Source of the DNA: Lampris incognitus
Lineage: Eukaryota; Chordata; Actinopteri; Lampriformes; Lampridae
Direction: 5' to 3'
DNA length: 64,000 bases
Assembly: GCF_029633865.1 (NCBI RefSeq)
Contig: NC_079215.1
Span: forward strand, 55,207,457 to 55,271,456
Of this stretch, positions 9,001 to 54,691 are shown piece by piece. The notes under the pieces were generated by a model. The model was not told the origin of the DNA. It made no database searches and was given only the letters and a program-made list of their open reading frames with translations. Each line of letters begins with the position of its first letter. Position 1 is the first letter of the stretch. The position numbers and the translations under genes are program-made.

Positions 9001-12000
9001 AAACATGGTATCTCAGGCTACATTGCAATATCAAGACAATGATGCCAGTTAATATAATTTGAGTCAACCTTTATTGATTTTTTTTTCAATTACAGACAAA
9101 AGAAACTTCTTACGATGACTTGATTTATTTTTGATGACCTAATTTCACCTTATAATTTATTTATTTTATTTATTTATTTTCATTTTTTTGGACCCCCCCC
9201 CCCTTTTCTCCTCAATTGTATTCGGCCAATTCCGCCATTCCGAGCCGTCCCGGTCGCTGCTCCACCCCCTCTGCCGATCCGGGGAGGGCTGCAGACTACC
9301 ACATGCCTCCTCCGATACATGTGGAGTCGCCAGCCGCTTCGTTTCACCTGACAGTGAGGAGTTTCGCCAGGGGGACATAGCGCGTGGGAGGATCACGCTA
9401 TTCCCCCCAGCTCCCCCCTCCGAACAGGCGCCCCAACCGACCAGAAGAGGTGCTAGTGCAGCGACCAGGACACGTACCCACGTCCGGCTTCCCACCCAAC
9501 AACAGCCCAGACACGGCCAATTGTGTCTGTAGGGATGCCCGACCAAGCCGGCTGTAACATGGGGATTCGAACCGCCGATCCCCGTGTTGGTAGACAACGG
9601 AATAGACCACTATGCTACCCAAACACCCAGGTGGTCAATTCATAAATGGTACTGCAATATGATCTTGTGCTTAAAGTAAAAATAATATTGTAAAGATTGT
9701 AAAGGGATTGAGGAAATGATCCTGGAATTCAACCATTTCTGTCAAAAGTGAACAGGTAAGAGCGTGTCCCAATTCTTGCTTTTACACCCATGCACTCTTT
9801 AGAACTAACTCACCACAAGTCCACTCCATCTCGACGTCACAAAAATGTGGCCTTGTTGCAGGACTGCAGAGCTGAGTGTACCATTTGAGAAAGGACCTAT
9901 GCAGGTTTTCATTCCAACCCAACAGTACACCGCCTGATTTAATTTGCTGATTTCACCTCCAAAATGTACACCAGCCATGGGCGGTTTGTTCATAAGGGCA
10001 ATTGGGTGATGCACCACCAAAGGGGATTTAACGACCCGTCGAGGGATTAACGGTGAAAGACGGAATATAGTTACAAAGATGTATGGAACCAGGAGTTGTA
10101 ATGGGACATATAAGCACACTTGAGAGGACAATAAAAGACACACAGAACGGATTATGGTGAACTGGGTGTTTACAGTGAAAAAAGTGAAGATTTACAAGAC
10201 ATAAAACACCACACCAAGTTACACAACCGAGACCTGTCAAAATAAAAGGAGTGGGGTCGAAAATAAACAAAACACCCCAACTACAGCTTGTAATATCTAC
10301 CTACCTCTTCACAAAGAAAACAAAACCTCTCTAGCTAATCTCACTACAATTAGCATTCATAAATACAGGGAGCGACACCACCGTTAAGCTAATGTGCCTA
10401 GACAGAGAACTCAGCCTACGTGTAAGCCGTGTATAGGGGCCCCTGTATCTTATCTGGCACTGGTCTCAGAGGTGAGACAGGGAGCTCAAAGATTTAGAAA
10501 AAACAACCTCTCTCACAACCTCCACACAGCACACAAGCGTAAATGAGGGAAACAACTGCCAGCTGGCATGGATTGGAGCTATTTCAAATGGAGAGCTGAG
10601 AGTTGATTGGAGAAGGCATAATTGCAGGAGGAAGCCGATTGGCGGGGGTGAGATGATGAGCAGATGGAATAATGATGATTGACAGCAGGTAGGACGATGA
10701 CGATGGCTGCACACCGACTCTTGCAGGAATGGACAGCAACAGAGAGAGAGGGTGAGAGGAAGAGAAAAGAGAGAGGGGAGGAAAAATGCACGCACACATC
10801 TCACACACACACACACACGATCGTAACACTCCCCCACACATGAACAAACTAATTAAAGTTTGTTCAATACACAATAATAGGATAGAACACAATACAATCC
10901 AGTATTGTACACACACTAAACTCAAGATAGTGCATCTGCTACCATGTTGTCCTTCCCCTTCTTATGTTTAATCACAATGTTGTAATTCTGTACAATCAAA
11001 GACCAACGCATGAGGCGCTGGTTCTGGTTGTACATACTAGACAAAAACAGCAAAGGACTGTGGTCAGTGTAGACAACAATGGGCACAGGTCTAGAATCAA
11101 GATAGACCTCGAAAAACTGCAATGCTAAAAGCAGCGCAAGCGCCTCCTTTTCAATGGTGGAATAATGCAACTGGTGCCTATTAAACTTCCGGGAGAAGAA
11201 ACAGACGGGGTGATCCTCTTGCAGAAAGCACTGCACCAGCTCCCAGGGCACTTGCATCTACCTCCAACTCAAATGGTAGTGCAAAGTCTGGGGCAATGAG
11301 CACAGGGATGGTACATAACAATGCCTTAATACTCTCAAAGGCATGCTGACAATCTGGGGTCCAATCAAAACGTTTGGTCACACTAAGGGCACTAGTCAAG
11401 GAGGCAACAACCACAGAGAAGTTTCTACAAAACTTCTATAATATCCAGCCATCCCGAGAAAACGGCATAGTAAACTCAGCGATAGCAGCTACCTTTGCAT
11501 CAACTGGACGGACTTGACCTTGGCCCACCTGTTTCCCCAAGTAGGTTACGGTCACTTTACCAAATTCGCATTTGGCCAGGTTCAGGGTGCGTGTTGCTTT
11601 GGCCAACGTTTCAAACACCAATCGTAATACTCTAACATGATTGGACTAGCTGTCTGACTTTACAAATAAATCATCTAAATAAGCATAGCAATCAGGTACA
11701 CCAGCCAGAACGGTATTCACCAACTGCTCAAAGGTGGCAGGGGCCTTTCGAAGTCCAAAGGCCAAAACATTATACTGCAAAAAGTTATTAGGAGTGACGA
11801 AGGCAGAAATCTCAGAGGCGCGGGATGTCAAAGGAACCTGACAATACCCCTTAAGTAGGTTGAGTTTAGTCACAAATTTTGCAGAACTGATGTTGTCAAT
11901 GCAGTCCTCTATCCGCAGCATAGGGTAGGAGTCTGGCACTGTGACTGCATTGACCTTGAGGAAATCTGTACAGAAACGTGATGTACTGTCGGGCTTTGGA

Positions 12001-15000
12001 ACGAGAAGACAGGGTGAACTCCAGCGACTAGAGCTGGGCCTAGCCAAGTTGTTATCTAAGAGATATTGCACTTCCTGTTTCATAGTATCCCGTTTTGCAG
12101 CATTGACACGGTATGGGTGTTGTCTAATGGGAACAGAGCCATTCACATCAATATCATGCTGCAAGTTTAACAAGGTCCCAGAATTTGTTAGTCTAGTGCA
12201 CTGTTGAGGTGTGTTCCGAAGCACAAGACCATCTTCATCCTCTGCACAGAGACGGGAGGTTTTAGGGACAGGACTAGCAATAGAAACAGGCAATACCTTC
12301 TTCCCCTCCTCTGACGGGGGTGTTTCTCTAACATGGTATGCCTTAAGCATGTTAATGTGGCAAATGTGTGACTGGCGCTTGCGTTCGGGTGTTCCAATTA
12401 CATAGCCAGTTTCACTAAGTTTCTCTTCCACAGCGTAAGCACCAGAAAAGCGAGCCGACAGAGCAGATCCAGGAATGAGCAGCAACACTAGCACCTGGTC
12501 TCCTGGCCTAAAAGAGCGCACTACAGCCTTCTCATCATAATGACGCTTCATGGTCCTCTGTGAGGAGTAAAGTGCCTCTTTGGCAAGTGAGCCGGCACTG
12601 TGTAAACGCTCTTTAATCTGACTGACATAATCCAGTACTTTAGACTGGGAGGACAAGTCAGACATAAACTGTTCTTTTAAAACCTTCAAAGGACCTCGTA
12701 TAGCATGTCCAAACAGCAGTTCAGCTGGGCTGAACCCTAACGATTCTTGGACTGCTTCTCTCAAGGCAAAAAACACAAAGGACACACACAGCCTCATCCC
12801 AACATGTTCTTGTCTCCAGACAGTATTTGCGTAGAGCAGACTTGAGTGTTTGGTGCCAACGTTCCAGTGTCCCCTGCGACTCGGGATGATATGCACTAGA
12901 AACCCCATGTGTGATAGACAGAGTGTGTAAGAACTGTTTAAAGCATTTGGAAAGAAAGTCTGTGCCTTGATCCATCTGAATAACCTTTGGGAACCCAAAT
13001 GTTGTGAAAATTTTAGTCAGTGCTTTGATTACATTTTTAGCAGTGATAGTATGCAGAGGAACAGCCTCAGGAAATCTGGTCGTCATACATATAATCGTAA
13101 GCAGAAACTGTTGACCAGATTTTGCCTTGGGGAGGGGTTCCACACAATCCAGAATTACGTGCTGGTAGGGCTCACCCATTGCAGGAATTGGACAGAGAGG
13201 GTTAAGAGGAACAAGCTGATTAGGTTTTCCAGTGACCTGACAAACATCACATGACCTACAGCGTTTCACTACAGAATTTTTAAGTCCAGGCCAGAAAAAG
13301 TGCTTTAACAAACAGTTATACGTCTTTGTAACCCCCAAATGACCAGACCGTGGGTTTTCATGTGCCAGTGATAACACCTGCGGTTGGTAAGCAATGGGCA
13401 CAACAATCTGATAAGTCACGCTCCATTCCATACCAGCAGCAACAGGAGAAGACCACTTCTGCTTTAACATACCATTCTCCACAAAATAAGCTACAGATAA
13501 CTTTTTGGCTGCTTCTAGTGTAACAGCTGTGTCAAAACACTGACGCAACGACTGATCACTCTGCTGAGTTAAAACAAGACTTGCGCGAGTGACAGGCAGT
13601 GCCAGGGAGGGCACTTCTGACTGTGGATTAGTCGATTGGCTTTCCTTCGCCTACTCCAGCTTACTTGTTATGGCCTCAGCTTTGAGCGTCTCCTTATGCA
13701 GCACTCTAGCAGTTTCAGTTACTGACTCATTAACATCACAAGGGGGTGCTAACACAGACTCAGATAAATTGATCTCATCTCCCTGTTTCCGTGTTTGGGC
13801 ATGAGTGAGCACACAGGCCGGAAACACCTCAGACATGGATTGAGACATAGGACATGGTTTGGGCTGTTCTACAACCTGTGGCAGAGGTCGCACATTACCT
13901 CCAGCAATATCGTTTCCCATAATAAAGGTCACGCCCATGACAGGTAGAGCAGAACACACAGCAACATAAAAACATCCTGAGGCCAACTCAGTGTTACCCT
14001 GCACTCTGTAACGGAACAGTTTTATACCCCATCTCAATAACCTGAACAATCACATTGGCGCCACTGGAAGTTGCTTCTGACACAGGCAACACATCAGCCA
14101 ACATGAACGACTGTGACGCATCAGTATCTCTGAGAACCCGCACTGCTTTCTGATCAGCCAGTGCACCAGGAAGAGATACCAGACCCTCGAAAATGAACGG
14201 CTCATAGCCAGAGTCAGTTTTCTTATCAGGGTCAACCAGGGGAGATGTCTGGGAGACTGTTCTCAAAGCCCGTGGGCTTGAGTGCTTTGGACATCTTATT
14301 TTTGTTCTGCAATGCCATGCAATCGGCAATAAGGTGACCCGACTTTTTACAGTAGAAACACTAGGCTGTTTTATGACTTGCAAGCTAGGGCGAGCAGAGC
14401 CTATTGGCTTCTCACTCCAGGTGTAAGGACCATTGCCACGGGGCCGAAAACCATCAAAACCATGCTTATGGGTCAATGCATAATTGTAAGCCATTGCAGC
14501 AGCATCCATTGGCTTCAGTACACCACGCTCACTTAAGTGAGTAACGATCGGCTGTGACATAGTATGTCTGAATTGCCCCAAAATCAACAAATCACAAAGT
14601 TCCTCATACGAAGTGGCTTTGGAGGCTTTCCTCCAGCGATCAAAATTAATTACCAAATCTCACACAAACTCCACATGAGTCTGTTTTTCACTTTGTCTAA
14701 GTTCTCTCAACTTTTGCCTGTAGGCTTCCGGGACCAACTCATAAGCTTTCAAAATTGCATCCTTCACTTCCTCATAGGACGCCAAAGTTTTTGTATCAAG
14801 GGCAGAAAATACCTCCTGAGCCTTTCCCACCACAACACACTGGAGCAAAAGAACCTTATCAGCCTCCAACCATTATCGGTTTGCTGCTAGCCTCTCAAAA
14901 AGTGTAAAAAAAAAAGTATCCAAATCACGCTCATTAAACTTTGGAACCAACTTCAAATTATGTACAGCACTACTATGGACAGGTGAATGGGAACCCTCAC

Positions 15001-18000
15001 TTTCAGACAATAAAGAGGCATCAAGTTTTCCTTCCATAACCAAACTCAAGCGCTGATTTCGATAGTCCACCGCATCTTTTTGTTTCTCCTCAGCTAAAGC
15101 CAATTCTCGTTCCTGTTTCACCTCAACTAAGGCCAATTCCCGCTCTTTGAGCTTTGCATTAATCCTAGAAAGTTCAAGTTGTTTATTAAACTCCATTTCA
15201 GCAAGTCTTAATTTAAGTTCAGCTTCCGTCATTTCTGTGGTCATTGTTTCAACTTTCAAAACCCCTTGCTCAACCATGAGTTCACTCAGGTGCTGCCAAA
15301 ATTCAAAAACACTAAATCGCCCAGTACACAGTTCTCTAGGCTCACCCCAATGACGAATGAGTAACACCAATTCCTCCCTCACAAGGCAATGCAAAGCAGA
15401 AAAAGACGGTCGAAGTAGAAACTCATTAATGCATGGATTGTTATGCAACTGAGTCACGCCTTTGCTACGAGTCGAATACATTCACTATGTATGTCACTAC
15501 TAGGTACAGGCCAATACAAAAAAATAAATAAATAAAATAAAATAGAGAGAGAGAGAGTAATGAACATAGGATCTACAAATAGTAAATACTGTTTCCAAAT
15601 ACCAATATCAACACCGTTTCTGTCAGCACATATTCACAAATATTACCCTCACAAAGGGGCTTATATCCCGGACGAGCCCCCAATTGTAACAACCCGTCTA
15701 GGGGTTAAGGGTGAAAGATGGAATATAGTTACAAAGATGTATGGAACCAGGAGGTGTAATGGGACATATAAGCACACTTGGGAGGACAATAAAAGACACA
15801 CAAGATGGACTATTGTGAATTGGGTGTTTACGGTGAAAAAAGTGAACATTATTTACAAGATATAAAACACCACACCAAGTTACACAACCGAGACCAGTCA
15901 AAACAAAAGGAGTGGTGTTGAAAATAACAAACAAAACACCCCAACTACAGCTTGTAATATCTACCTACCTCTTTACAAAGAAAACAAAACCTCTCTAGCT
16001 AATCTCACTACCATTAGCGTTCATAAATACAGGGAGCGACACCACCGTTAAACTAATGTGCCTAGACAGAGAACTCAGCCTACGTGTAAGCCGTGTATAG
16101 GGGCCCGTGTCTTACTTGGCACTGGTCTCAGAAGTGAAACAGGGAGATCAAAGATTTTGACAAAAACATCTCTCTCACAACCTGCACACAGAACTAACGC
16201 AAACAGCACACAAGCATAAATGAGGGAAGCAACAACTGCCAGCTGGCATGGATTGGAGCCATTTCAAATGGAGAGCTGAGAGTTGATTGGAGAAGGCATA
16301 ATTGCAGGAGGAAGCTGATTCTCCTTTCTCGATTAAAAAGCAGAGCTGCGTCACGGCTTTATGGCCGATGCGGCCTGCCTTGGGCCGGGTGTAATATATG
16401 TGCATTGCTATGCACACCAACTGAATTTGATGATGCAGCAAGCCACTTCTCACATCCCAGCAGTGAGAGTTTTCTTCTCCAGTCTGGGCGGTATTGCCAA
16501 TTTTTTTACCCGGTCACCCAAAAGCACCAGCATTCTTGACCAGATCGTCGCACGAAGGCTGCCAAGAGCTTCATCCACAAGACGGAACTTCAACAGCGGA
16601 ACCGTCAACACCGTGTACGAGGAACCTAGATGACCTCGTCAGTGTTTCGAATCCATCAGGGCATCGGGTTCATTTGACAACACCACGTTGAGGGAGGCAT
16701 CTGGCTTTCTGGGGATGCTGCAGGATGATGACTTGCAGTTTTTTCTGCAGTTATTTCGTCAAATCATGCCTCACGTTGACATGCTGTACCAGCAGCTGCA
16801 GAAGAAGGACACTGATGCAGTCTTCATCAAACGTGCCCTCCAGAGCTTCACAAGCAGTGTGCAGGCCATAAGGTAAGATTAAATAATATCGTTCAATCCT
16901 TCTCAATACAGAACCTTGCCATAACGAAATGTATACATGAAGCAAAGCTATATTAGTGTTGGAAATGAGCATTTTCTTCTCATTTCTAAATTCTATCAGG
17001 CCCTCATATTTTCATGTACTAACAAACACTGTTGGCCTGCTTGCCCTCAGGGACTCATCTCAACAGCAGCAGCAAGTAGTGACAGGAACCACAAGACCAA
17101 GGAGTGCCTTAGAAGAAGAGGAGAAGCAGAGGCTGTCTAAAGAGGTCTGCGATACCATCCTGGCTCACGCCAAAGAAAGGTTCTCCTTCACTGACCACCT
17201 TGTATGTGCCACACTACTACAAGCAGAGATGTTTGAACAGCACTGTCATACATTTCCTGTTGAGGCTCTGAATGCCACTGTGAAGGCATATCCCATGTTC
17301 AACAAGACAAAGCTTAAGACAGAACTATCTCTTATCTATGAGAATCCAGAATTCAAGGGCTGCTGTGGTGCACTGGCGCTGTACCAGGCTCCACTGAGAT
17401 ACAAACTCCAGGGGATATTTTCTGAGACTGTGGCTCTGTTGAACATCCTCATCCTGAGAGGTGTTTCTCAACATTAAAGAGAATTAAGACATTGGGCCAG
17501 GAATGTCTCAATGCATTGGCCATGCTTTCCATGGAGAGGGAACTAGTCAGGAACATGCCTGATTTCAATGAGAGGGTTATTGATCACGTTGCTGCTTTGA
17601 AAGAGAGATGAGCAAAATTTCAATATACTAGGTAATGTAGTTTAAATAGAGACACATTCTCAATCTCGGTCTCTCTCTCTCTCTCGCTCACTCTCTCTCA
17701 CACACACACACACACAAAATCGGTTAAGTGTTGATGTTGATTTTTAATAGTTATTTTTTTCAATCAATTGCTGTTTTTCAGGCAATATGTTCTTCTCTGT
17801 TCATGTTCATTTTTACAAATCTATACAAGTGGCCAGAAGATGGGTGTTCATTTTTATAAATCTTTACAAGTGGCCAGAGGATGGGTGTTCATTTTTATAA
17901 ATCTTTACAAGTGGCCAGAGGATGGGTGTTCATTTTTACAAATCTATACAAATTGCTGTGTTTCCCTTTTTACAAATTATATGCGTCACTTTCTTCATCA

Positions 18001-21000: not shown

Positions 21001-24000
21001 AACAGAAGAGACTGGTATGCTACCCAGACACCCCTTTGGTTGTAAACTTGAACACCATTGCATTCATACAGTGGCTTGCAAAAGCATTCATACCCCTTGA
21101 ACTTTTCCACATTTTGTCACGTTTCGACCACAAACATAAATATATTTTATTGGAATTTTATGTGAAAGACCAACACAAAGTGGCACACAATTGTGAAGTA
21201 CAAAGAAAATTATACATGATTTTAAAAAAAATTTTACAAATAAAAAACTGAAAAGTGCGGTGTGCAAAAGTATTCAGCCCCCCTGAGTCAATACTTTGTG
21301 GAACCACCTTTTGCTGCAATTACAGCTGCAAGTCTTTTGGGGTATGTCTCTACCAGCTTTGCACATCTAGAGACTTAAAGTTTTGCCCATTCTTCTTTGT
21401 AAAACAGCTCAAGCTCAGTCAGATTAGATGGAGAGCGTTTGTGAACGGCAGTTTTCAGATCTTGCCACAGATTCTCAATTGGATTTAGGTTTGGACTTTG
21501 ACTGGGCCATTCTAACACATGAATATGTTTTGTTTTAAACCAGTCCATTGTAGCCCTGGCTTTATGTTTAGGGTCGTTGTCCTGCTGGAAGGTGAACCTC
21601 CGCCCCAGTCTCAAGTCTTTTGCAGACTCCAACAGGTTTTCTTCCAAGATTGCCCTGTATTTGGCTCCATCCATCTTCCCATCAGCTCTGACCATCTTCC
21701 CTGTCCCTACTGAAGAGAAGCACCCCCAGAGCATGATGCTGCCACCACCATGTTTGACGGAGGGATGGTGTGTTCAGAGTGATGTGGAGTGTTAGTTTTC
21801 TGCCACACATAACGTTTTGCATTTAGGCCACAAAGTTCAATTTTGGTCTCATCTGACCAGAGCACCTTCTTCCACATGTTTGCTGTGTCCCCCACATGGC
21901 TTCTGGCAAACTGCAAACGGGACGTCTTATGGTTTTCTTTTAACAATGGCTTTCTTCTTGCCACTCTTCCATAAAGGCCAGATTTGTGCAGTGCATGACC
22001 AATAGTTGTCCAGTGGACAGATTTCCCCACCTGAGCTGTGGATCTCTGCAGTTCCTCCAGAGTCACCATGGGCCTCTTGGCTGCATCTCTGATCAGCGCT
22101 CTCCTTGTTCGGCCTGTAAGTTTAGGTGGACGGCCGTGTCTTGGTAGGTTTGCAGTTGTGCCATACTCTTTCCATTTCCGGATGATGGATTGAAAAGTGC
22201 TCCGTGAGATGTCAAAAGCTTGGGAAATCTTTTTATAGCCTAACCCTGCTTTAAACTTCTCCACAACTTTATCCCTGACCTGTCTGGTGTGTTCCTTGGA
22301 CTTCATGATGCTGTTTGCTCCCCAATATTCTCTTAACAAACCTCTGAGGCCGTCACAGAACAGCTGTATTTGTACTGAGATTAGATTACACACAGGTTGA
22401 CTCTATTTAGTCATTAGGTCAACATTCGATCATTCAGCAATCATCAGGCGACTTCTGAAGGCAATTGGTTGCACTCAGAGAAAAGGGGGCTGAATACTTT
22501 TGCACACTGCACTTTTCAGTTTTTTATTTGTAAAATTTTTTTTTTAAATCATGTATAATTTTCTTTGTACTTTACAATTGTGTGTCACTTTGTGTTGGTC
22601 TTTCACATAAAATTCCAATAAAATATATTTATGTTTGTGGTCGTAACGTGACAAAATGTGGAAAAGTTCAAGGGGTATGAATACTTTTGCAAGCCACTGT
22701 ATGTAGATTTTATAATGCATAACTCTGCATAGCAGCTATCCCACAATATTTGTTGCCACACAATGATATGGTTGTGGCAGGACCCAAGACCCAAATAAAT
22801 GCCATTATGCTGAAAATTGATCTTGAGTCAGTAGGACTAGGGAACATTGTGAAATATCATATGTGAAGTCAGGAGTTGGGACCAAGAGACGTTAACCTTT
22901 GACGTTTGACCTTTTACTTTTACAACCTTTACATTTACATATTTCTTGATAGCTGCTCTATTTCAGGTTCTTTTTCCTCTTTTTTTTACCCTTCAGTCAA
23001 ATGCAGATCTAATACCACTGTCTTTGGTCTTTTTTTTTTCATTTAAGGCAACATTCCTGGCTTTATTCCGCATCATCGGGACCTATGAGTGGAACAACAC
23101 CATGACAATGACCATCAGTGGACAAAGGTGCTTTTAATGTCTTCTTCTTTTTGACTCATGAGACAATGCAAATAATTTCCCAACTGTTACTTACCCCTCC
23201 CTCCAAAAAAATCCAAACCTTCATCTCACTAATATGAAACACATTTCTGCTCTCTTTGACACAGTGATAATGAAAACTCAACTAGAGGGTCCATGAACAA
23301 AACCATCCCTGTGCAATTTCAAATTGATTTGGCAGCAAGTGTGTAAGTAACATTCATAAAATCACTAAACAGAAATACAGTAATAGTTTACAAGGCTCTT
23401 CCTCCTCCTTCCATCCTTTATTCAATAGTTTTAATCTCTTGAAAAAAACCTTGTTTTTTTTTTGTCTTCCATTAATTGTAAATAGTGATTATGAGATGGT
23501 GTGTTTGTAGGAATGAAGACACAATCACCTATCTCAGCTTTACTCCAGAGGACAGCGCACCGAAAACAGTAGTGATCATCTACGAGGTAAAGTTGCACCA
23601 TATAGGTGAAAACTAATATGGATGAAATGTACAGAACATGACATGAAAACAGCTTAATTTTAAGTCCATGTTATACTTTTGAGGTTTTCTATATCTAGAA
23701 ACAACGGGAGCGACAAAGGAGAAAAGGACCCCTGAATCAGTCCCATGATATGTTTTGGTCTAGCTAGATGCTGTTGCAGTGGTGAAGAACTGACAAATTA
23801 AAATGGACAAATTATGTCCTTATTTGCAGGTGAAAAATCTGGGTTTGAAGGCTTTACCCGTCAGCATGTCACTGATAATCCCAACTAAACTGCAGCATAA
23901 CTTTGAAATGAACAACTATCACGTCTCAGTTGAACAGGTAATATGTTTGTAGTCAGAAGTCTACTTACATCAACTTTTTTTGCCACCGTTATACGTAACA

Positions 24001-51887: not shown

Positions 51888-51889
<2 letters not shown>

Positions 51890-51952
<63 letters not shown>
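51890..51952. repeat. AAT microsatellite
   Basis: About 20 TAA units; the miniature LTR element at 51953 is inserted at its right end, and the repeat resumes briefly at 52346. Confidence 0.95.
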
Positions 51953-51954
<2 letters not shown>

Positions 51955-52345
51955 TAACATGCATGGATAAGTAGACGGACCCTTTAGTCGACTGCTTAAC
52001 GTTGTCGCCCGCGGTGCGGGAGATACGGGTTCGCGTCCCGGCTGTGGCAGTTCCCGGGTGCCCTCCTTGAGTTCGCTGCAATTGGTGTCAGAAGTGGGAT
52101 GGTGAGACCGTGAGGTCATCGGAAGCGCGTGCGCCAAGAGGCGTGAGGGAGTTGATATGCTGAAGCGCGGGGACCCGCTTCCCGAATGAGGGGGGTAGTG
52201 TAATGTGCACGAATAACGTTAGCCCTTGGCTAACGGGTCGGACCCTTTAGTCGACTGATTAACGTTGTCACCCGCGGTGCGGGAGATACGGGTTCGCGTC
52301 CCGGCTGTGGCGGTTCCCGATTACCCCCCCATTTAGTTCGCGGCA
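51953..52345 (+). mobile_element. Miniature LTR retrotransposon (TRIM-like), tRNA-like LTRs
   Basis: Left LTR 51953-52080 (TGTAACATGC ... TTCGCTGCA), right LTR 52199-52345 (TGTAATGTGC ... TTCGCGGCA). The primer site TGGTGTCAGAAGTGGGAT at 52083-52100 is an exact 18-nt complement of the tRNA-Leu(CAG) 3' end with CCA. The 118-bp interior has no ORF and ends in a purine tract GAATGAGGGGGG. ATAA flanks both sides (51949-51952, 52346-52349; the microsatellite weakens this). Each LTR carries TTTAGTCGACTG ... CGGGTTCGCGTCCCG, an A-box-like and T-arm-like pair. Confidence 0.85.
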
Positions 52346-52409
52346 ATAATAATAATGGATTAATTACATTGATTGTGGGGCTACTGAGGTGGGGTCGGGC
52401 TGGCAGCAA

Positions 52410-53185
52410 GTTAAGTAGGGCACTCAGATGTCCCTCTCCCCAGCAACGCCCTCCAGCTCCTCCTGGGGGATCCCAAGACGTTCCCAAGCCAGATTGGACA
52501 TCTACCCCGGGTTCTCCTCCCAGTTGGACGTACCTGGAAAATCTCCAAAGGAAGGCGCCAAGGAGGCATCCTAATCAAACGCCCGAACCACCTCAACTGG
52601 CTCCTTTCGACACGAAGGAGCAGCGGCTCTACTCCAAGCTCCCTCCGGCTGTCTGAGCTCCTCACCCCATCTCCAAGGCTGAGCCCAGACACCCTACGGA
52701 GGAAACTCATTTCAGCCACTTGTATCTGCGATCTTACCCTTCCGATCACTACCCAAAGCTCATGACCATAGGTGAGGGTTGGAATGAAGATTGACTGGTA
52801 AACTGAGAGCTTTGCCTTCCGGCTCAGCTCCCTCTTCACCACAACGGTCCAGCACAACATCCGCATTACTGCTGATGCTGCACCAATCCGCCTGTCAATC
52901 TCCCGCTCCATCCTACCCTCACCCGTGAACAAGACCCCGAGATACTTGAACTCCTTCACTTGAGGCAACAACTCACCCCCAACCCGGGGGGAGCAATCCA
53001 CCATTTTCCAGCAGAGAACCATGGCCTCAGACTTGGAGGTGCTGACTCTCATCCAGGCCATTTCACACTCCGCTGCAACCCGCCCCAGTGCGCGCTGGAG
53101 GTCGCGTTCTGATGAAGCCAACAAAACCACATCATCTGCAAAGAGCAGAGATGCAATCCTGAGGTTCCCAAAACGAAGGGCTTTA
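52410..53185 (-). mobile_element. RTE/Rex-type LINE reverse transcriptase C-terminus
   Basis: An open minus-strand frame of 239 residues: ERDLQRALGRVAAECEMAWM, VKEFKYLGVLFTGEGRMERE, YGHELWVVIGRVRSQIQVAE, RVERSQLRWFGRLIRMPPWR. The catalytic YxDD part is upstream or lost. Fragment only. Confidence 0.8.
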
Positions 53186-54691
53186 GTCTAAAAAAAACGC
53201 CGATTGACCTCGCTGGGTAGATTACGTGAATGACGCGATGACGTCACTCGTAGAGTAAGAATGACGCTCAAATTTACGAAAATATCAACCATATATAAAT
53301 TGCATTTTATAAAATGTATATCTAGTATATATGTCTTTAAATAAACGTGAAAAGATAGTAAGATAGTTCCCTGAAATTGCAATGGTTTGTGATTTTGTGA
53401 AATTCATCCATTGACCACCATTCATTTTACACTTACCCCCCCCCTTCGCGTGCCGCTATTGGCCATCTTCAGAGAGACGTATCTTTCATTCAGGCTAAAG
53501 AACCTTTGGTAGAACCTACAAACTGGCAAGAGACGTCAACGCTCCCCTCCGTCCAATCTCTTCCCAAGCAAGTCTCTTGTTATGGCTGTTTCCTTCCCAG
53601 GTAGCATCAGGATGTGGGCCACTTCAGGCACTGATGGCCTTCTTCTGGCCCTGGCGAAATGGATGTGAGCCTGAAGTGGCCCACATGTATAACAGCAAAT
53701 ATGGCTCAAACATGCCAAATCAAATGTGGACCTTTTTTGGCAAAGATGAGGTGCTCTCGGCAACATGTAATCCGGATGTGACCCTGATGTTGCCCATGTG
53801 GTAAATGGTGAATATGGCCCAAATATCACAAAACAAATATGGGCCACCTTTGGCAAATATGTGGCACATGCGGCATTGCTATGGCTTGGTTCTGGCCCAG
53901 ATCTGGCAAACAGGAGTGGCCCGCCCAAGTGCCATCATTCCATGCGGAATGTGGGCCGGATGAAAGAAAGATGAAAGCCGGGTGTGGGACGGGTCCGGGC
54001 CACAACAATTTTGCTATCTGGGTTCTGACAAAATAAAATAATATTTGTTGTATTACTATGTATTGTGGTATATAAAAGTAATCTTATACAATACAATCCA
54101 TCACCCCTCCGAATTCTTTGTAAGACAAGACTATCACCTGGTGTGTCTGTTTGAGAAAGGAGAGCTATTTTACATGATTCAGTATGTTGAATCCCATTCA
54201 GCTTACAGTTTAATTTATCCATCCATCCATTATTCAAACCACTTATCCTTACCCAGAGTTTGTTTTCTGTAAAAATTATTACTACTTAATGGATTTTCAA
54301 TGAAAAGCTGAATATCCAAAAGATCTTCAGTTGACACTGCTCCTGGTATCTATGGTTAACACGGCAATAATTTTCAGATTCAAAAGCTATATAAGAATGA
54401 GTGGCTCTGGCACTGAGATGAAACTGAATCCACTCATCTAAATGAAAGGCACATCACCCAGCATCTCACCAAGCCTTCAGGGTAAATACTGATAAGTAAA
54501 ATCTTGCTCCAAGCTGAACTTCGAGCCTCCACATTGGAGGCCGGCCCTGTGACTGGCTCAAAGTCCACTTCTTTGCAGCAACACTGCAGTTTTCGGCGTT
54601 ATCTCTTGTGTTTGTGATCCCTCTCAAATCTCTTCACTTTCTGAACCGCCAAACCAAGTGTGGTGTCCTTAGCGCTTTCTGAAACCACAGG
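53186..54691. other. Intergenic sequence before pla2g12b
   Basis: 53600-54010 is a degenerate repeat with many TGGCCCA/TGGCAAA-type words (AAATATGGCCCAAATATC and like). 54215-54250 is a scrap of the SINE family 2 tail. The last 150 bp are the 5' UTR and promoter side of pla2g12b; no TATA box is obvious. Confidence 0.4.

Follow-up and report, generated by a model that had tools for sequence, protein, structure and literature searches.

tRNA-derived SINEs are non-coding repeats with an internal tRNA-like promoter; they occur in many copies, have no LTRs, primer binding site (PBS) or polypurine tract (PPT), and are moved by LINEs. Among repeats that do have LTRs, the plant TRIM Cassandra carries 5S rRNA in its LTR, forms tandem arrays and has been shown to be transcribed by pol III (as told in PMC10886601). 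Helenus elements are TRIMs whose LTRs hold a tRNA-like module with A and B boxes (Kojima 2024, PMC10886601). In the parts of that paper on which we draw, they are non-coding elements of 311-1263 bp with two LTRs, a PBS and a PPT; those of animals make 4-bp duplications, vertebrate families are primed by tRNA-His, -Leu or -Lys, and Gypsy was inferred to be the mobiliser of the animal elements. The fish families reported there include LTR-11_DR of zebrafish, with 5,575 LTRs, 2,618 interiors and tandem arrays, and relatives in other Cypriniformes, a catfish and milkfish; further hosts are sturgeon, paddlefish and coelacanth.

Here we describe an element in a 64,000-nucleotide stretch of the Lampris incognitus genome, referred to as the window. 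A first-pass annotation made from the letters of the window knew of no described fish family of this kind. This claim fell, as the published Helenus set has fish families, and the kind of element is already described and not new. We found a 393-bp non-coding element with two LTRs, a PBS and a PPT, 4-bp duplications and a tRNA-Leu primer. As far as the published description goes, it is like the Helenus/LTR-11_DR group in its TRIM plan, the A/B-box-like motifs of its LTR, its duplications and primer, its tandem arrays and its thousands of copies, which here are first-look candidates. On this analogy it may be filed as a Helenus-type TRIM, set beside LTR-11_DR by description, not by letters; judged in the same way, it perhaps belongs to the LTR-11_DR group.

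The comparison with Cassandra drawn in the first-pass annotation is apt, since each LTR carries a tRNA-like A/B-box module. Within the account of Cassandra cited above, both are non-coding TRIMs with tandem arrays and with small-RNA-like pol III promoter sequence in the LTR, which is predicted for the element described here. Unlike Cassandra, a plant element with 5S rRNA and demonstrated transcription, this element has a tRNA-like module and a putative promoter. It shares a tRNA-like module, the lack of coding capacity and abundance with tRNA-derived SINEs, and differs from them in having LTRs, a PBS and a PPT. A target preference and joins between the primer tRNA and the LTR, both seen here, were not found in the portion of the Helenus description on which we draw (PMC10886601). 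What the element contributes to the described class is an example on the scale of a whole genome, a preference for certain targets and direct evidence of the primer.

The window contains a complete but decayed element

Direct reading of the letters confirmed a complete LTR-interior-LTR element of 393 bp at 51953-52345 of the window, as the first-pass annotation had proposed; its coordinates, the TG...CA LTRs of 128 and 147 bp and the purine tract all hold. The 5' LTR (LTR5, 128 bp, 51953-52080) and the 3' LTR (LTR3, 147 bp, 52199-52345), both delimited from the letters and by repeat comparison, lie on the plus strand, as do all features of the element given below, and are 88% identical over a common 103-nt stretch. 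By eye, LTR5 is without a 19-nt hairpin, CGTTAGCC-CTT-GGCTAACG, that lies in the U3 of LTR3 (52217-52235). LTR5 is followed by A, T and then the 18-nt site TGGTGTCAGAAGTGGGAT (52083-52100), the PBS, which by comparison with host genes pairs with the 3' end plus CCA of tRNA-Leu (tRNA positions 76 to 59). The interior (52081-52198, 118 bp) is non-coding, as judged from the letters, family comparison and the ORF list, and it ends in the PPT GAGGGGGGTAG (52188-52198), directly 5' of LTR3. Both LTRs contain TAGTCGACTG and GGTTCGCGTCC, 43 nt apart from start to start. In LTR5 the A-box-like sequence is TAGTCGACTGC (51985-51995) and the B-box-like sequence is GGTTCGCGTCC (52028-52038), both read from the letters and column conservation; in LTR3 the letters give TAGTCGACTGA (52248-52258) and GGTTCGCGTCC (52291-52301).

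No coding ORF was seen inside the element in the ORF list of the window, and the earlier statement to this effect stands: the single stop-to-stop frame of at least 120 aa that reaches the element (52234-52656) extends out into the flank. The TRIM plan proposed at first sight, short and non-coding with two LTRs, PBS and PPT, is likewise borne out. The flanking ATAA, a candidate 4-bp target duplication, is indeed present on both sides (51949-51952 and 52346-52349), but the element lies in or beside an (ATA)n array of 21.7 copies found by repeat analysis (51888-51953), with the left ATAA inside it. The element stands where this array ends, and for the window copy the ATAA pair is therefore uninformative as a duplication. 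The window copy is old and decayed.

The element belongs to a dispersed family with a target preference

The element was searched against its own genome (1.48 Gb, 537 contigs). The full-element query gave 5,567 first-look candidates, of which the best 40 were scored and 49 matches listed, 48 of them besides the window copy. Queries with LTR5 (129 bp) and with the interior gave 2,633 and 2,348 first-look candidates, again with the best 40 scored, and these numbers are unconfirmed as copy counts. The family is dispersed, has TG...CA ends and includes some copies in tandem arrays. Two sequence patterns run against viral contigs gave no match.

Family statistics were drawn from 88 partly overlapping loci chosen by similarity to the window copy, in which we found 235 profile matches to the module and 109 to the interior. 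Counting complete, unique interiors with enough sequence to either side, the LTR module was present on both sides in 67/81, on one side in 14/81 and on neither in 0/81, in loci that are similar to the window copy. Longer homologues with ORFs, which the first-pass annotation had named as evidence against its reading, are thus not what these loci contain. The identity of LTRs from one copy was 0.868 vs 0.846 between copies, and that of the interior was 0.929; these values carry little weight, as the loci were chosen by similarity.

To look at duplications we removed from the 67 flanked interiors 16 in tandem, 13 whose TG start was not clear and 3 whose end could not be placed clearly, which left 35. 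Identical 4-bp flanks were found in 10/35, while shuffled pairing gave a mean of 4.7 and a maximum of 10 (2,000 shuffles). Identical flanks of other lengths were rare in the same sample (3 bp, 1; 5 bp, 0; 6 bp, 2). The targets are mostly ATAT or ATAC: over the four letters to the left (-4 to -1), the 35 copies have A in 23, T in 26, A in 28 and T or C in 24. Pairs of ATAT are to be expected from this preference by itself, and identical pairs of ATAC or GTAT (L048, L035, L084) are therefore more telling. The test is weak beyond the target preference, as at least 1 of the 2,000 shuffles also gave 10/35. At the level of the family these results show 4-bp target duplications, mostly at ATAT or ATAC. 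The first-pass annotation had looked to many copies, 4-bp duplications and conserved boxes for support; the copies and the duplications are there, but conservation of the boxes exceeds that of the other module columns by no more than a small margin.

Among 242 LTR pieces in the 88 overlapping loci we found 7 head-to-head and 5 tail-to-tail junctions, and no transcription start could be derived from these snap-back junctions. In the head-to-head pairs (L028, L043, L044, L046, L060, L062, L076), several of the junctions fall on or close to the A-box palindrome AGTCGACT.

The LTR module resembles a tRNA in its boxes but not in its fold

Of the 171 unique modules within the 235 profile matches, 155 retain GGTTC and 139 a relaxed A box. 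Mean column conservation was 0.947 for the A box, 0.948 for the B box and 0.889 for the other 55 columns. With CpG columns removed the values were 0.952, 0.968 and 0.901 (one-sided p = 0.02, with columns that are not independent). The first-pass annotation had described an A-box-like and a T-arm-like sequence in each LTR. The boxes are present in both LTRs, but neither a tRNA call nor a tRNA fold accompanies them. ARAGORN called no tRNA in the window (bacterial settings) or in the 88 loci, and Rfam, run on 51900-52400 with E up to 10, gave no tRNA and six chance-level matches to other RNAs. Folding of the module was ordinary and not tRNA-like (z 0.87 and -0.57). The tRNA aligned to fish Helenus in the published description is tRNA-Val(CAC) (Kojima 2024, PMC10886601). 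When we compared the module with the human tRNA-Val(CAC) sequence, the similarity was equalled by 45 (LTR5) and 75 (LTR3) of 1,000 shuffles. A working pol III promoter in the LTR module is no more than plausible.

T-runs are depleted (17 vs 60 expected). We rejected this as a sign of selection against pol III terminators, because A-runs are equally depleted (10 vs 35 expected).

Joins between tRNA-Leu and the LTR point to the primer

All 18 nt of the PBS pair with the 3' end and CCA of the host gene L092, which ARAGORN reads as tRNA-Leu(CAG). The same 3' end occurs in intron-bearing genes that we read as Leu(CAA), though ARAGORN does not call them so, and the isoacceptor therefore cannot be named from the 18 nt alone. 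The exact complement reported in the first-pass annotation was correct, but the name tRNA-Leu(CAG) that it attached to these 18 nt was ambiguous, and support for CAG comes from the readable joins described below.

A search of the genome for tRNA-Leu 3' ends gave 39 places, of which 34 were read. These include Leu genes and gene-like copies as well as places where the sequence runs through CCA into an LTR of the element, mostly in inverted orientation. Among 48 tRNA-Leu 3'-end stretches read in total (L095-L142, 242 bp each), an LTR of the element adjoins 22. The longest tRNA stretches in joins are 65 nt (L106) and 60 nt (L112). The letters upstream best fit the CAG type in 12 joins (L098, L102, L105, L106, L107, L112, L125, L126, L130, L133, L137 and L138). 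One join (L140) best fits CAA-type tRNA-Leu, and the remaining joins linked to the element were assigned to no type. Where the tRNA runs into other LTR ends, CAA fits best in 5/9 (L121, L127, L131, L134, L136). Because the upstream letters of the joins fit CAG, the assignment to tRNA-Leu(CAG) rests on more than the 18-nt pairing. Two near-identical joins (L113, L114) carry AAG-type tRNA-Leu, which hints at another Leu isoacceptor in some copies.

In 4/22 element-linked loci (L105, L107, L125, L126; ungapped extension) the first tRNA letter of the join is nt 39 or 40, immediately beyond canonical position 37, which in tRNA-Leu(CAG) is presumably m1G. L102 also starts there by gapped alignment, and the other element-linked joins start from nt 22 to 61, so that ending at tRNA position 37 is a tendency at most.

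The shapes of three joins were read from the letters. L104 has the order LTR, PBS, tRNA complement, purine tract and LTR, with the interior missing; L110 runs from the LTR through its own B box into the tRNA T-arm and then into an inverted LTR; and L112 turns back on itself at the anticodon arm. Such shapes would be expected if plus strands were extended too far and then switched to a new template through short homology. Switching between primer tRNA and LTR, as from B box to T-arm in L110, could also have been the route by which tRNA-like modules entered LTRs, instead of SINE insertion. Our search of the literature, in which subscription journals were poorly covered, is a weak negative and found no genomic record of such tRNA joins. 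Seven tRNA-Leu 3' ends lie at regular spacing within 7.2 kb of the host genome (C2:33744523-33751705), and one of them, L101, is Leu(CAG) by ARAGORN.

Changes at position 58 are in excess in tRNA stretches that end in CCA

A 34-nt pattern ending in CCA, for which 3 mismatches were allowed, matched at 54 places, and its reversed control at 0. Of these places 31 have the CCA end and 23 are without it. We compared 29 of the 31; the other 2 keep A at position 58 and have a different Leu 3' end. Nucleotide 68 of the tRNA (canonical position 58) was not A in 11/29 (7 G, 3 T, 1 C). Elsewhere in the same stretches, over 30 positions, 32/870 were changed (Fisher p = 1.5e-8 vs position 58). Some of the 29 stretches depend on each other, as L113 and L114 are near-identical and L125, L126 and L137 lie within 400 bp.

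None of the 23 places without CCA was changed at position 58. Within this group 15 copies had room for a change under the mismatch limit, 6 of which were changed elsewhere; this 0/15 gave p = 0.008 vs 11/29 and 0.009 vs 11/31, in a control that is small and has a tighter mismatch limit than the CCA group. A count of 0/13 in gene-like copies was discarded as a control, since it is biased: either the pattern fixes A58 or the mismatches are spent on the missing CCA. The element adjoins 20/29 stretches (19 by LTR match and L133 by its CCAATGTAG end), of which 6 are changed at position 58; different LTR ends adjoin the other 9/29, of which 5 are changed.

In retroviral priming m1A58 is a known plus-strand stop, and in the portion of the work we cite a stop at 37 is a minor product (PMC13191261). 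Since position 58, which is m1A in mature tRNA, is changed in excess in the CCA-ended stretches, mature tRNA-Leu itself was probably reverse-transcribed. We tentatively suggest that copies that went wrong, both in this element and in another LTR family, form a fossil record of the modification state of the primer tRNA, left by plus strands that passed m1A58 with misincorporation. It is possible, on an equally tentative footing, that some of these strands stopped close to position 37, and that the strands gave rise to LTR dimers that contain tRNA, are palindromic or lack the interior. If true, a genome alone reveals the isoacceptor that primes an LTR family and the modification of that tRNA, families with an identical 18-nt primer site become separable, and the question of the Helenus helper becomes testable. 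The putative record of tRNA modification is the part worth following.

Candidate helper elements

The sequence CA plus the 18-nt PBS occurs 108 times in the genome, and four loci were read (L143-L146). One is a copy of the element (L143) and another is a tRNA join (L144). L145 has two open frames after the primer site, which gave no Pfam match and look like gag and reverse transcriptase. L146 is a Gypsy element that has domains of RNase H and integrase, shares the 18-nt primer site and ends in TGTAA...TTACA; 191 positions of its 193-bp LTR were aligned at 98.4%, and no A- or B-box-like match was found in this LTR. The Gypsy flanks (L146/L147) read GTCTT on both sides, which is 5 bp in this one copy vs 4 bp for the element. 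Among the four loci read, none was a coding element with the LTR described here. Because of the 5-bp duplication of its one copy and the CAA-type joins at such LTR ends, the L146 Gypsy is disfavoured as helper.

A proposed mechanism and its alternatives

The window copy is very probably an old, decayed Helenus-type TRIM with a tRNA-like LTR module that spread as follows. Pol III factors would recognise the A and B boxes in the 5' LTR, transcription would begin about 10-20 nt upstream of the A box, and the transcript would run through PBS, interior and PPT into the 3' LTR. Mature tRNA-Leu, of the CAG type where readable, would sit on the PBS and, as the joins support, would itself be copied by reverse transcriptase. 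The anatomy suggests that strand transfers and priming from the PPT then yield a double-stranded copy, which would be inserted with a 4-bp duplication, mostly at ATAT or ATAC as seen at the family level. The proteins would be supplied in trans by an LTR element, probably a Gypsy, as Kojima proposed for animal Helenus.

The weightiest alternative is an ordinary TRIM transcribed by pol II, in which the LTR contains the old remnant of a tRNA or SINE and the boxes are idle. The weak tRNA similarity, the missing tRNA fold and tRNA call, and a T-run depletion that is not strand-specific all agree with it. However, the box columns are somewhat better conserved than the rest even without CpG columns, and many Helenus families have been published with this arrangement (PMC10886601); we regard unused boxes as unlikely, though well ahead of the other alternatives.

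A deletion derivative of an autonomous element with the same LTR, the module then belonging to a full Gypsy, would account for the 18-nt primer site and the TGTAA...TTACA ends found in the host Gypsy. Its 193-bp LTR without box-like matches and its GTCTT flanks in the one copy argue against such a descent, as do the joins, which are CAA type in 5/9 at other LTR ends and mostly CAG at the element, and the lack of a coding element with this LTR among the four loci read; we consider this derivation improbable. The (ATA)n array at the window copy might suggest that a tRNA-like stretch arose by chance in an accidental repeat of a microsatellite region, but this reading is already refuted by copies elsewhere in the genome that have LTRs, 4-bp duplications and joins to tRNA, and its likelihood is negligible.

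Other mobile elements in the window

An LTR retrotransposon lies on the minus strand of the window at 10029-16320. Its direct repeats are about 5,660 bp apart, its reverse transcriptase and integrase domains are in separate frames, and its primer site is TGGGGGCTCGTCCGGGAT, which we take to be of the tRNA-Pro type. Pieces of a Tc1/Sleeping Beauty-like transposase are found at 21375-22402, also on the minus strand. Finally, a minus-strand reverse transcriptase fragment at 52411-53187 lies about 70 bp past the element.
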